Shown here: positions 2,290 to 26,932 of the stretch, piece after piece
Numbering within the stretch: position 1 is the stretch's first letter
Layout: every line of letters begins with the position of its first letter
NCBI GenBank assembly: GCA_016278285.1
Contig: JADQCD010000234.1
Location: forward strand, 1 to 35,227
Origin: Actibacterium sp.
GTDB lineage: Bacteria; Pseudomonadota; Alphaproteobacteria; Rhodobacterales; Rhodobacteraceae
Direction of reading: 5' to 3'
DNA length: 35,227 nucleotides
Translations under genes and position numbers: made by a program
The notes under the pieces: model-generated
Seen by the model: the letters and a program-made list of their open reading frames with translations, nothing else
Told to the model about the DNA's origin: nothing
Databases searched by the model: none

Positions 2290-3081
2290 ATGCTTGTCGT
2301 GATTTCACCTGCAAAACGTCTGGATGAAACGCCGCTTCCGGGGCTGCCGGCGACCCGCCCGGATTTCGCGGCCGACGCAGCGCATCTGGCCGGTCATGCC
2401 CGCCGGCTGGACCTGTGCCAGTTGCAGAAACTGATGGGGATCAGCCAGGCGCTCGCGCGCCTGAATGCAGATCGCTTCGCCGGCTTCGCGACCGACCCCG
2501 CGCCCGACGAAACCAAGCAGGCGGCGCTGCTCTTCGCCGGCGATACCTATGCCGGGCTGGAGGCACGCACGCTGTCCACGGACGATCTTCGCTGGGCGCA
2601 GTCGCATCTGCGGATTCTGTCCGGGCTCTACGGGCTGCTCCGCCCGCTGGACGCGGTCCAGCCTTACCGGCTTGAGATGGGCAGCCGCCTGAAAACCGAA
2701 CGTGGCGCCAACCTTTACGCGTATTGGGGCGACCGGCTGGCGCGCGCCCTGAACGCGGCCGCATCGGATTCCGGGGCGCAGGTGCTGGTGAACTGCGCCA
2801 GTCAGGAATATTTCGGCGCCGTTGACCGCGACACGCTGAGCTTGCGGGTCGTCACGCCGGTCTTCATGGAAGATAAGGCAGGCACGCCAAAGGTCGTGAG
2901 TTTCCATGCCAAGAAGGCGCGCGGGGCGATGGCCCGCTTCGTCGTCGAACACCGCCTGACCGATCCGGAAAGCCTGAAGGATTTCGATACCGGCGGCTAT
3001 CGGTTCGATGCCGGCCTGTCCGAGGGCGACCGCTGGGTGTTCCTGCGGGACGGGGCCGCAAGGCAGCCTGCCGCGTCATGA
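2290..3081 (+). CDS. yaaA: Peroxide stress protein YaaA (DUF328 family)
   Basis: MLVVISPAKRLDETPL..., LSGLYGLLRPLDAVQPYRLEMG, NCASQEYF, KKARGAMARF motifs. Start placed at the internal ATG 2290, which matches the family N-terminus. Confidence 0.93.
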   Translation: MLVVISPAKRLDETPLPGLPATRPDFAADAAHLAGHARRLDLCQLQKLMGISQALARLNADRFAGFATDPAPDETKQAALLFAGDTYAGLEARTLSTDDLRWAQSHLRILSGLYGLLRPLDAVQPYRLEMGSRLKTERGANLYAYWGDRLARALNAAASDSGAQVLVNCASQEYFGAVDRDTLSLRVVTPVFMEDKAGTPKVVSFHAKKARGAMARFVVEHRLTDPESLKDFDTGGYRFDAGLSEGDRWVFLRDGAARQPAAS

Positions 3082-5628
3082 TCGCCTGGCCAGTTGCCGG
3101 GGTTCCTGTGCCGTCGCATCGGTCGTCGTGGCGTCCGGCGGCAGGCACCCGGGCGGGTGATACATGGCGATCATGTCCATGATCGCGTCCTTTTTCAGCG
3201 GCTTGGTCAGGTAATGGTCCAGCCCCGCGGCAAGGATGTCTTCCGCGTCGCCTTCCAGCGCATGCGCGGTCAGCGCGACGATGGGCACCGGTGCGGTGCC
3301 GGACCGCGCGTCCTGCGCGCGCAGGGCACGGGTGGCCTCTTTGCCGTCCATTTCGGGCATGGAGATATCCATGAAGATCAGATCGGGACGCTGTTGCCGC
3401 ACGGCCTCGATCGCCTCGGTGCCGTTTTCGGCAAAGGTCAGATCGATTTGCAGCCCTTTCAACATGCGTGAGAACACCAGGCGGTTGGTCGCATTGTCCT
3501 CGGCCGCAAGAATCCGCATCCGACGCGGCCGGTCATCCGGCGCGGCGTCGCCGGCCGGGCCGATCATCTCGAACACCGCGTGGTGCAGCGCCCGTCGCAG
3601 AACGGGCTTGCTCATCACCCTGTCGATCGCCGCCCCGTCTTCCAAGGCGGCATGGCCGGAACTCAGCAACAGGACCGGCGCCACGCAGCCCTGCTCGCGC
3701 AAGTTGGCGGCCAGCCCGACCCCGTCCATGCCCGGCATCCGATGATCGCAGATGACCAGATCGAAGGGACCCTGCGCCGTCAACCCGTCCAGGGCCGCAA
3801 CGCCGGAGTCATGCAAAATCACCTCCAGTCCGATCTGCCGCAACTGACGATCCAGGATCGTGCGGTTGATCTGCTGGTCGTCGACCACAAGAACCCGCCC
3901 CGCCCGCACCTTCAACTGCGGCGGGTTCAGGCGGGGCGCCTCGGCCAGGGGCAGTGTCAACCGGAAACCGAAGCATGATCCCGCACCCTTTTCGGAGTCC
4001 ACCCAGATTTCGCCGCCCAGCAACTGGACCAGTTGGCGGCTGATGGCCAGCCCCAGGCCAGTGCCCTCGAATTTGCGGTTTTGCTGATCTTCGACCTGAT
4101 TGAACTCTCCGAAAATATGGTCGCGCATTTCCGGGGCGATGCCGATTCCGGTATCCTCGATCGTGACATGCACTTGCTGGTGGCCGGGCCTTTCCGCCGG
4201 CAGGCCGACGACCCGGACCAGGACGTGACCGGTTTCGGTGAATTTCACCGCATTGCCGATCAGGTTTGTCAGGATCTGACGTATCCGGCCGCAATCGCCC
4301 TCGAACCGTGTGGGCTGGAACATGTCATAGTCGATGATCAGGTCCAGCGCCTTGCTTTGTGCCGAGGGTTGCAGCAGCATCGCGACCTCGTGGATTGTCC
4401 GTTCCAGGTCGAACGGCTCGGAGTGAAGGATCAGTTTTTCCGCCTCGATCTTCGAATAGTCCAGAACGTCGTTCAGCAGCGCCAGCAGTGCCTCGCCCGA
4501 ATTTCGCATGGTTTCGGCATATTGCCGCTGTTCTTCGTTCAGCGGGGTGTCGCACAGCAGCTCGGCCATGCCGACGACGCCGTTCATCGGTGTGCGCAAC
4601 TCGTGGCTCATGTTGGCCAGAAAGGCGGACTTGGCCCGGCTTGCGGACTCGGCGGCAAGGCGGGCCTCGTCCAGTGCCTTTTGCTGGCGCTTCTGTTCGG
4701 TGATGTCCACGCGCAAACCCACCACCCCGCCATCGGGGGTGCGCTGTTCCAACACGCGCAGCCAGCGCCCGCCACTCAGTTCCTGCTCGCTCACGCCATC
4801 GGCGCGTTGATGTCGGGTCAGCCGTTCGCTCAACCAGGCCGCCTCGCGGCCAGCGGCCTCGGGATATTGTCCATTCTCCAGGCCATGGCGCAGGATCTCC
4901 TCGAAACTGGCGCCGGGCAGGATGGCATCGGCCGACACGCCATAGATCTCGCGATAACGGTCGTTGCACATCAGCAGCCGGTCATCATGGTCGAACAGGA
5001 CGAAGCCGTCCGGCACCGCCTCGACCGCGGCCCACATGCGCATCATCTCGGTGATATTGATGTTCAGGCTGACGGTGTCGCCATCGGGAGTGCGCCGGTC
5101 GATCAGCTTGACATACTGCCCGTTCCACAGCCGGATCACCTTGTCCGGGATCGGATCGCTGGACCAGCGCGCCAGCATGTCGTCAATCCAGGCCTGCGGT
5201 TTCTTTCCCTCGGTATCGACGATTCCTTCCTCGGCGGTCAGCCGGACCACGTCGGCGTAACGCACACCCAGCGAAACGGCATCCAGCCCGTCGAAGATCG
5301 ACAGGAAGGCGCGGTTGGCGGCGATCATGCGGCTGTCGGTATCGAACACGGCGAAACCGTCGCGAATCGTTTCCAATGAGTTCCACAACCGGCGCTCGGC
5401 GATGGCGAAAGCCTGGCTCACCTCCTCCAGCTCTTCGCGCACCTGACTGTTCTGGCCGCGCAATGTCTCGGCCTCGTTGCGGGTCTCGACGATCTCATCC
5501 GACAGGGTCCGGGCATGGGCGGCCAGCTTGCGGTTGGCATCGAACAGTTCGCGGCTTTTTTGTTCGAGAAGGCGTTCGGCGGCCAGCCGCCCACGCCGTT
5601 CCTCGGCCAGTTTCTCGCTCAGGCTCAT
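3076..5628 (-). CDS. Soluble PAS-domain hybrid sensor histidine kinase with two receiver domains
   Basis: N-terminal coiled coil, two PAS-like segments (ETIRDGFAVFD, EAVPDGFVLFD), HisKA FLANMSHELRTPMNGVVGMAELL, HATPase N/G boxes (NLIGNAVKFTETG, DTGIGI, GTGLGLAIS), and two REC domains (VVDDQQ...CDHRMPGMDG; AAEDNATNR...MDISMPEMDG). No transmembrane segment seen. Start set at MSLSEKLAEERR. Confidence 0.93.
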   Translation of the reverse strand: MSLSEKLAEERRGRLAAERLLEQKSRELFDANRKLAAHARTLSDEIVETRNEAETLRGQNSQVREELEEVSQAFAIAERRLWNSLETIRDGFAVFDTDSRMIAANRAFLSIFDGLDAVSLGVRYADVVRLTAEEGIVDTEGKKPQAWIDDMLARWSSDPIPDKVIRLWNGQYVKLIDRRTPDGDTVSLNINITEMMRMWAAVEAVPDGFVLFDHDDRLLMCNDRYREIYGVSADAILPGASFEEILRHGLENGQYPEAAGREAAWLSERLTRHQRADGVSEQELSGGRWLRVLEQRTPDGGVVGLRVDITEQKRQQKALDEARLAAESASRAKSAFLANMSHELRTPMNGVVGMAELLCDTPLNEEQRQYAETMRNSGEALLALLNDVLDYSKIEAEKLILHSEPFDLERTIHEVAMLLQPSAQSKALDLIIDYDMFQPTRFEGDCGRIRQILTNLIGNAVKFTETGHVLVRVVGLPAERPGHQQVHVTIEDTGIGIAPEMRDHIFGEFNQVEDQQNRKFEGTGLGLAISRQLVQLLGGEIWVDSEKGAGSCFGFRLTLPLAEAPRLNPPQLKVRAGRVLVVDDQQINRTILDRQLRQIGLEVILHDSGVAALDGLTAQGPFDLVICDHRMPGMDGVGLAANLREQGCVAPVLLLSSGHAALEDGAAIDRVMSKPVLRRALHHAVFEMIGPAGDAAPDDRPRRMRILAAEDNATNRLVFSRMLKGLQIDLTFAENGTEAIEAVRQQRPDLIFMDISMPEMDGKEATRALRAQDARSGTAPVPIVALTAHALEGDAEDILAAGLDHYLTKPLKKDAIMDMIAMYHPPGCLPPDATTTDATAQEPRQLARRS

Positions 5629-23867: not shown

Positions 23868-24072
23868 GGCGCGGTTCTCCTGATTGCCGCAGATCACACC
23901 GCGCCGCCGCTGCAATCATGCGTCATCGGGGCGCCGGAACTTCCTTTTACGGATTGAAGACGACTCAGCATGGCGTTTCCGATGCCCGTCTCCTGGGTCG
24001 GCGCGATTCCAACCCTTCCAGAAACGCTACCATGACGCCTGACGCATGGTCAAAATTTTTTTAACTTTTATA

Positions 24073-24102
24073 TCATTTATTGAGCGATCCGCTTGATAAT
24101 GA
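24073..24102. promoter_or_regulatory. Imperfect dyad in an AT-rich regulatory region upstream of the ALDH operon
   Basis: TCATTTATTGAGCG-ATC-CGCTTGATAATGA: outer TCATT/AATGA and inner AGCG/CGCT arms. Markedly AT-rich compared with the surrounding DNA. Confidence 0.35.
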
Positions 24103-24117
24103 TTTGCGTGTGCAAAT
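24102..24117. promoter_or_regulatory. Perfect inverted repeat ATTTGC-GTGT-GCAAAT, candidate operator
   Basis: 6-4-6 perfect palindrome in the gap between the rpiR-like gene 3' end (24142) and the ALDH start (23867). Confidence 0.4.
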
Positions 24118-24141
24118 TCCAGACCCTGCGTGACAGTGCCC

Positions 24142-25077
24142 TCAATCGCAAAGAGGGCGCGTCACGTCTTCGTCAAAATTCGAGACGAACTGCTGCTTCA
24201 GCCTGCGCAGTTTCTCCATTGCGTGATCGCGCGAACGGATCGCCGCCCCGAAGGCGAGAAGGTCGATCACCGCAAGATAGGAATATCGCATCGACGTCGG
24301 TCCGAGCACATCCCCGTCATTGCGCAGCACCGAAATCCCCAGCGCCAAATCCACGGCCTTGGCAAGCGGGCTGCCCTCCTGGGTCATGGCGATCGTTCTG
24401 GCGCCGTAGTTTCGCGCGATGCGCGCCGCAGTCACAAGCTCGTCGTTGACCCCGCCAAGCGAAAAGCAGAGCACCACGTCACCGCGGTCGAGTGACGCAG
24501 CCAACATTGCCTGCATCACGCCATCCCGGCACGGCACGACACGCACGCCAAGCCGGAAAAAGCGGTTCTGAACCTCCTCGACAAGCCAGCTCGACACGCC
24601 CCCGCTGCCGAAGGCATAAAGCGTTCCGCCACCCAGTATGTCATCGATTGCGCGCTCAAGCTTCTCGTCGGGGATGCGCACCGCCTCCGCGATCGCGCCA
24701 TGCGCCCGCATCGAGACCTGTTCGCGCACATTTTCAAGCGTTTGAGGCGGGTCCGGGGGCTCCAGATAGCGCGGCCCGACCCGCATCGCGCCCATCACCT
24801 GCAGCTTGAGGTCACGCAGTCCGCCACAGCCGGCAAACCGGCAAAAGCGGATGATCGTCGGCGCCGACACGCCGATCCAGTCGCAAAGATCCCTCACCGG
24901 CTTTTCGACAAACAGCCGCGGATAGCCAAGCACCGCTTGCGCGATCTTGTGTTGTGATCGCGACATCTCGGGTTCGAGGTCGCGGATCCGGGCAAGAATG
25001 TCGCCGGTTGCACCATCGCTTGGAATATCCTGCTCCGGGTCGCCCTCGGGTGTCGATTCAGAGGTCAATTCTTTCAT
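24142..25077 (-). CDS. MurR/RpiR family transcriptional regulator (HTH_6 + SIS domain)
   Basis: HTH segment DLCDWIGVSAPTIIRFCRFAGCGGLRDLKLQVM and SIS domain ALDGG-like LYAFGSGGVSSWLVEEVQNRFFRLG...DVVLCFSLGGVNDELVTAARIARNYGARTIAMT. Confidence 0.93.
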   Translation of the reverse strand: MKELTSESTPEGDPEQDIPSDGATGDILARIRDLEPEMSRSQHKIAQAVLGYPRLFVEKPVRDLCDWIGVSAPTIIRFCRFAGCGGLRDLKLQVMGAMRVGPRYLEPPDPPQTLENVREQVSMRAHGAIAEAVRIPDEKLERAIDDILGGGTLYAFGSGGVSSWLVEEVQNRFFRLGVRVVPCRDGVMQAMLAASLDRGDVVLCFSLGGVNDELVTAARIARNYGARTIAMTQEGSPLAKAVDLALGISVLRNDGDVLGPTSMRYSYLAVIDLLAFGAAIRSRDHAMEKLRRLKQQFVSNFDEDVTRPLCD

Positions 25078-25338
25078 CCCTGTCCGTCATTGCCTTTTAA
25101 TTGTAAATCACTTTTGATACGAAAGTTAAATATAGATGATCGTGATTCGCCGAAAACCCTATGCGCGCCGGTGCGGGGGCCCGGCGCCCATCCGCGGGAA
25201 ACTTGGTGCGAACGATCGTATATCGATTGACCATGGGGAGGTTGCCTGGCGCGCGCCCCGCATCCAGGCAGGGAGGAAGCGGCGCCAGCAACGCCCGTGA
25301 AAAATAATGGCTTCGATTGTATCGATCCTGTGTCCTCC

Positions 25339-25450
25339 CCTGCCGTGTCCCGGCGCTGTGCGTGCCACGAGCCTTCCGGTCACGGTTGGCGCGATCGGCG
25401 GAAACGCCGCGCCGTTTCCGGCCGATCATACGCGACCGGGACACGGCAGG
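25339..25450 (+). ncRNA. Candidate structured element: 15-bp terminal inverted repeat enclosing two further hairpins (identity unknown)
   Basis: CCTGCCGTGTCCCGG (25339-25353) is exactly complementary to CCGGGACACGGCAGG (25436-25450). Inside it, GATCGGCGGAAACG (25393-25406) pairs with CGTTTCCGGCCGATC (25413-25427) with one bulge, and there is a weaker imperfect hairpin at about 25361-25393. Confidence 0.4.
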
Positions 25451-25489
25451 CCATGAAGAAGCGGATCTTCGTCTATCCCCGGGTCATAC

Positions 25490-25786
25490 ATGACGAAGAG
25501 GCCACGGTTGTCGGTCAGCGGCTTTTCTCGGCCGGAATTTCGTCTGTGGCCAACGCTGGAAACCCCCGAATCCTTGAAAATCGCGCTCGACGCTGCGCAT
25601 CAGAGCAACGCCGCGGCGGTCGGTTTCTACAATTATGGCCATCTGCACCTCAGCGCCCTCGACCGGATCGAAAGGCAGACCGATCGAGAGCGCCGGCTGC
25701 GAAAAACCATCAACGGCACTTTGCGCAGCGGTGCAAAGAATTCGGGCGACAGGTTGTCGTCCCAAGGACACGAAGAGGAGACGGAA
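25490..25786 (+). pseudogene. Possible remnant of a C-terminal coding segment upstream of the amidohydrolase
   Basis: Frame encodes GFSRPEFRLWPTLETPESLKIALDAAHQSNAAAVGFYNYGHLHLSALDRIERQ, which reads like a genuine protein tail, but it has no full-length upstream partner and runs without a stop into the amidohydrolase frame. Confidence 0.4.
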
Positions 25787-26932
25787 TTGTATGATCTCAT
25801 ATTGAAGGGCGGCCGGGTAATGGATCCGGCACAGAATCTGGATGCGCCACGCGACGTCGCGTTCACGAATGGGAAGGTCGCGGCGATCGGCGCCGACCTG
25901 CCGGTCGATAGCGCCAGGCAGACCCGCGATGTGCGCGGCAAGATCGTGACTCCCGGCCTGATTGACCTGCATACTCACGTCTACTGGGGGGGCACCTCGC
26001 TTGGCGTGGATGCCGATCCGATCGCCCGGCGCAGCGGAACCACGACATTTATCGATGCCGGAAGCGCCGGCGCCGGGAATTTCGCGGGGTTCCGAAAACA
26101 TGTGATCGAACGGTCCGTGCCGCGTATCCTGGCCTATATCAACGTGTCCTTCGCCGGGATCTATGCGTTCAGCAAACATGTCATGGTCGGGGAATGCGGT
26201 GACATGCGGCTTGTCCATCCGCATGAATGCCTGCGTGTCGCGCGTGACAATCTCGACGTTCTGGTTGGCGTCAAGGCACGGATCGGGGCAAAGGCCGGCG
26301 GCAACTCGGGCCTGGCACCGCTGCATCTGGCGATCGAAGTGGCCGATCAGCTTGGCCTTCCGGTCATGGCGCATATCGACATGCCGCCGCCCAGCCAGCG
26401 CGAGGTTCTGAATATCCTGCGCCCCGGCGATGTGCTTACGCACTGTTTCCGGCCTTTTCCCCTGGCGCCGGTGCATGCGGATCGCTCAATCCGGGAAGAG
26501 GTTCTTGCCGCGCGCGATCGTGGCGTCATTTTCGATATCGGGCATGGCTATGGCGGTTTCTCTTTCGACTCCTGCCGCGCCATGATGGAACAGGGAATCA
26601 TGGCCGATGCGATCAGCAGCGACGTTCATGCCCTTTGCGTCGACGGGCCGGCTCACGATCTGCTGTCGGTGATGTCGAAATTTCTCGCACTCGGGATGCC
26701 GTTGCCCGAAGTGATTCGCGCCACTACGCAGAATGTCGCAAAGGCGATCCGGCGCGAAGATCTCGGCACCTTCGCGGTCGGCGCGGCCGGTGATGCGACC
26801 ATTCTGGAAATGCGCAACGAAACCGTCGAGCATGTCGATGTGGTGGGCCAGGTCGTGCGATCCGACGAACAACTGGCCAGCAGCGGCATGGTCATCGCAG
26901 GCGAATGGTGGCCGGACCCGCAGGACGCGTGA
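25787..26932 (+). CDS. Amidohydrolase / deacetylase family metallohydrolase (dihydroorotase-like superfamily)
   Basis: YDLILKGGRVMDPAQNLDAPRDVAFTNGKVAAIG, TPGLIDLHTHVYWGG, LDVLVGVKARIG, LPVMAHIDMPPP, LTHCFRPFPL, AISSDVHALCVDG. TTG start at 25787 with GAGGAG (25775-25780) at good spacing. Confidence 0.9.
   Translation: MYDLILKGGRVMDPAQNLDAPRDVAFTNGKVAAIGADLPVDSARQTRDVRGKIVTPGLIDLHTHVYWGGTSLGVDADPIARRSGTTTFIDAGSAGAGNFAGFRKHVIERSVPRILAYINVSFAGIYAFSKHVMVGECGDMRLVHPHECLRVARDNLDVLVGVKARIGAKAGGNSGLAPLHLAIEVADQLGLPVMAHIDMPPPSQREVLNILRPGDVLTHCFRPFPLAPVHADRSIREEVLAARDRGVIFDIGHGYGGFSFDSCRAMMEQGIMADAISSDVHALCVDGPAHDLLSVMSKFLALGMPLPEVIRATTQNVAKAIRREDLGTFAVGAAGDATILEMRNETVEHVDVVGQVVRSDEQLASSGMVIAGEWWPDPQDA

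Follow-up and report, generated by a model that had tools for sequence, protein, structure and literature searches.

In a 35,227-nt stretch of Actibacterium sp. DNA (contig JADQCD010000234.1; hereafter, the window), we analyzed a 112-nt inverted-repeat element located between an rpiR-like gene and the relic of a gene, here called X, that precedes an amidohydrolase gene. We place about even confidence in the reading that the element is a lineage-specific, single-copy 5′-leader hairpin of the operon divergent from rpiR, which now precedes a dead gene and is most likely neutral or of minor effect. Overall, the element is real and strong, unique to its lineage as far as this was testable, and probably ordinary.

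Structure of the inverted repeat

The sequence-only reading described a 15-bp perfect inverted repeat enclosing 82 nt, with two further hairpins inside. The repeat was confirmed: the two 15-nt arms are 100% complementary and 82 nt apart, and the outer helix continues for three further pairs beyond a one-base bulge. The element comprises the following parts.

25339–25353, + strand: 5′ arm of the perfect inverted repeat, CCTGCCGTGTCCCGG, 15 bp
25354–25391, + strand: interior with the claimed third hairpin, folding no better than shuffles
25393–25427, + strand: nested hairpin with 14 pairs and a single bulge
25436–25450, + strand: 3′ arm of the perfect inverted repeat, CCGGGACACGGCAGG, 15 bp

The predicted minimum free energy of the element as RNA was −73.9 kcal/mol for the plus strand (z = −6.24) and −73.2 kcal/mol for the minus strand (z = −5.33), and folding it as DNA gave z = −6.40. 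None of 200 shuffled sequences matched this fold, so the comparison with shuffles proposed earlier favored the element on both strands. The nested hairpin was present as described and proved moderately unusual: when its surroundings were shuffled, 11 of 1000 sequences folded equally well. The third hairpin, placed at about 25361–25393, did not survive the same comparison (z = +0.11; 511 of 1000 shuffles equally good), and the entire 82-nt interior had only a small advantage over its shuffles (z = −1.29; 101 of 1000 equally good). The strength of the fold resides in the arms and, weakly, in the nested hairpin. An intrinsic terminator or attenuator was also considered and ruled out, because neither arm is followed by a U-run; a terminator scan was likewise negative.

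Rarity of the element

When the window was divided into 1256 overlapping 112-nt stretches, the lowest folding energy and the lowest z-score both belonged to the element. It was the sole inverted repeat in the window with arms of at least 15 (Markov expectation, 0.03). It was also the only one with arms of at least 15 and a spacer of at least 40 in the 1.18 Mb of its own genome (38%) that served as the genomic background. We then modeled chance with 48 simulated genomes matched in size and local composition, counting repeats of at least 15 bp with spacers of 20–200. These contained about 2.9 such repeats per genome, and the full strength at the element's size was reached twice in all 48, corresponding to 0.04 per genome. 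The element therefore stands out within its own genome, yet a scan of many genomes would meet such a structure by chance. The earlier judgment that the complementarity was unlikely by chance thus stands for the window, where the element ranked best; it does not extend to the ordinary interior.

Genomic context of the element

The gap of about 700 bp assumed earlier resolved into a divergent region of 375 bp, bounded by rpiR (25077) and the X start codon (25453), followed by the X relic. The element is noncoding, and the statement that coding sequence does not explain it holds. The locus was compared with that of Rhodobacteraceae WD3A24, the only relative found with the same gene order.

24142–25077, − strand: RpiR/HexR-like transcriptional regulator, oriented away from the operon
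25313–25326, + strand: palindrome-like, A+T-richer block, TCGATTGTATCGAT, 12 nt before the element
25453–25694, + strand: relic of gene X, approximate end, from comparison with the intact WD3A24 copy
25787–26932, + strand: amidohydrolase/deacetylase family metallohydrolase, NF006689 above cutoff, likely TTG start

Only 2 nt separate the 3′ arm from the X start codon, and the arm contains the only Shine-Dalgarno-like site of that gene, GGCAGG. This site (25445–25450) is itself weak and is paired in the predicted fold with a probability of about 1.0. Scanning for a promoter of the plus-strand operon revealed no clear −35/−10 pair, which counts against the leader reading. The amidohydrolase likely starts at TTG here and at GTG at the equivalent place in WD3A24, and the gene to its right encodes an alanine-racemase-like/D-serine-dehydratase-like protein.

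The gap holds other sequence features. The block at 25313–25326 is a possible part of an operator or promoter. Two similar blocks, CGATCGTATATCGATTG at 25213–25229 and TTCGATTGTATCGATC at 25312–25327, are possible regulator sites; their motif had no match above chance in the WD3A24 locus, and no RpiR operator was established. A block at 25087–25130 (TTTGATACnnAAGTTAAA) is conserved with WD3A24, adjoins the rpiR start and overlaps a promoter-like site on the minus strand; it is the probable rpiR promoter or an autoregulatory site. Beyond the 3′ end of rpiR, the region 24053–24220 gave the next-strongest fold z-scores in the window (−4.9 and −4.4) and is probably a terminator.

Decay of gene X

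In WD3A24, X is intact, encodes 381 amino acids and lies between rpiR and the amidohydrolase gene (2532–3674 of the WD3A24 locus). In the window, the relic retains the first ~35 codons (25453–~25552) and the last ~45 codons (to ~25690), the two parts lying in different frames. An internal deletion of ~0.9 kb occurred at a GCCA microhomology (25549–25552), the two sites being 903 bp apart in WD3A24. The stop codon of X has also been lost, and therefore a long ORF (25490–26932) runs in frame from the relic into the amidohydrolase; an automatic gene caller may place the amidohydrolase start ~300 nt too early. An upstream extension of X as coding sequence was rejected: the frame is open there but resembles neither WD3A24 nor the starts of other X genes, and we treated the segment as leader.

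The X protein matched no Pfam or NCBIfam family. In many members of the family, an X-like gene is the immediate neighbor of the amidohydrolase gene, and an Aureimonas plasmid carries one after its amidohydrolase and alanine racemase genes. From this gene neighborhood, X would be an uncharacterized enzyme or partner in the amidohydrolase pathway. The present genome also carries a second, intact amidohydrolase and X pair (contig C80:3935–6240; 54% and 35% protein identity), which is possibly why the loss of X was tolerated. Homologs of X, ~380 amino acids long and often next to an amidohydrolase gene, also occur on many Rhizobium and haloarchaeal plasmids.

Conservation and copy number

Neither BLAST nor a covariance model detected a second copy of the element in its own genome. 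BLAST searches of the genus with the sister species, of 298 genomes of the family, and of plasmids and phages gave no match longer than about 50 nt, so that the suggested search for recurrence produced neither orthologous nor scattered copies. The covariance model, built from the single sequence, matched only the element itself in its own genome and 148 relatives, where searches above 40 genomes ran with stricter filters and may have lost weak matches. The exact two-arm pattern was absent from the viral contigs. The Rfam search was negative at both the gathering and a relaxed threshold; the highest-scoring weak matches, to SECIS_2 and mir-1294, fell far below their cutoffs.

We also searched the family, the genus of the relative, the order and plasmids for further syntenic rpiR loci and found none besides WD3A24. 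Its RpiR is 85% identical, and DNA identity in the flanks is 78% and 73%. Within the gap, the portions close to rpiR and in the middle aligned better than all 300 shuffles. The element itself could not be aligned to the WD3A24 leader, with 34 of 300 shuffles equally good in global and 186 of 300 in local alignment. The WD3A24 leader is unstructured in two fold tests (z = +0.69 and −0.28), and the leaders of seven other X homologs showed no comparable structure (z = +1.3 to −2.6). As far as one syntenic relative can tell, the pairing is not kept in a homolog. The X start lies 463 bp from the conserved RIRDLEP codons of rpiR here and 469–472 bp from them in WD3A24, and this near-equal length argues against a simple insertion. 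Within the genomes searched, including one syntenic relative, the hairpin is lineage-specific, single-copy and non-conserved.

Interpretation of the element

In the favored reading, transcription from the divergent promoter region would produce a leader RNA that closes on itself over 112 nt. Its 3′ arm would bury the weak ribosome-binding site of X, the first gene, and lower X translation. Since 5′ hairpins can stabilize mRNA (reviewed in PMC3997798), the structure could also shield the transcript from 5′-end-dependent decay. X is now dead, so a translational effect no longer matters and any effect is probably small; the element would be neutral, or a minor modifier of stability or expression for the downstream amidohydrolase operon. 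Template switching can make perfect stems in one event (PMC8794818), and a long perfect stem without conservation would fit such a one-step origin; the arms may thus have arisen from a single template-switching event during replication. A stronger version, in which one template switch created a new species-specific leader RNA with a tuning role for the amidohydrolase operon, in place of an unstructured leader of roughly equal length, seems to us improbable.

The alternative that we take most seriously, while holding it only tentatively, is a palindrome with no function, left by chance or template switching in a gap beside a decaying gene. The repeats that random genomes contain, including rare ones as strong at this size, would fit this explanation, as would the ordinary interior, the missing conservation and the adjoining pseudogene. 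It accounts less well for an element that is the strongest of its kind in the 1.18 Mb background and that occupies a noncoding position right at a start codon. A regulatory DNA site, either a cruciform or an extended palindrome to which the divergent RpiR-type regulator would bind, is unlikely, although the regulator gene adjoins and the sequence folds strongly as DNA. The WD3A24 gap lacks the element despite its closely similar RpiR, another palindrome-like block lies at 25313–25326, and 15-bp arms set 82 nt apart are unlike usual operators.

The sequence-only reading had also offered a small non-autonomous repeat and a riboswitch-like RNA, and neither gained from the searches. A MITE-like mobile element has the right overall shape, with short terminal inverted repeats (15 bp, perfect) around an internal hairpin. 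This explanation is very unlikely, because the tests of copy number and target duplication fail: the element is single-copy by sequence and covariance model, and its flanks (tcctcc and ccatga) share only a trivial CC, consistent with the earlier remark that no clear target-site duplication is visible. Relatives are also lacking in the genus, the sampled family genomes, plasmids and phages, and WD3A24 has nearly the same gap length and no element. Least probable of all is an undescribed family of riboswitches or structured leader RNAs. The strong fold does lie in a leader position, and the negative Rfam result means that such a family would be new. This explanation is disfavored because the conservation test fails with the relatives at hand, neither BLAST (298 genomes of the family sampled) nor the covariance model (148) having found a relative and the syntenic WD3A24 leader being unstructured; moreover, the third arm folds only at shuffle level.

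The element is mainly useful for calibration: without conservation, even a very strong fold (z = −6) in a single G+C-rich genome cannot be taken as evidence for a riboswitch. If the hairpin proved to be present in the leader of some sister strains and absent from that of others, they could provide a natural test of regulatory hairpins made by template switching.

Comparison with known systems

The element resembles MITE and REP-type short palindromic elements in its terminal inverted repeats, internal palindrome and intergenic position, but differs from them in having one copy, no target-site duplication and no relatives found. With template-switch (quasipalindrome) hairpins (PMC8794818, PMC7202029) it shares a long, perfect, non-conserved stem, as from one mutation event, whereas here no ancestral sequence is similar enough to reveal where a switch took place. 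Like the stabilizing 5′-terminal stem-loops of the ompA and papA type (reviewed in PMC3997798), it is a strong stem-loop near a presumed 5′ end and upstream of a start codon. In contrast to that type, the 5′ end here is presumed, the first gene is dead, and the 3′ arm also pairs with a weak ribosome-binding site.
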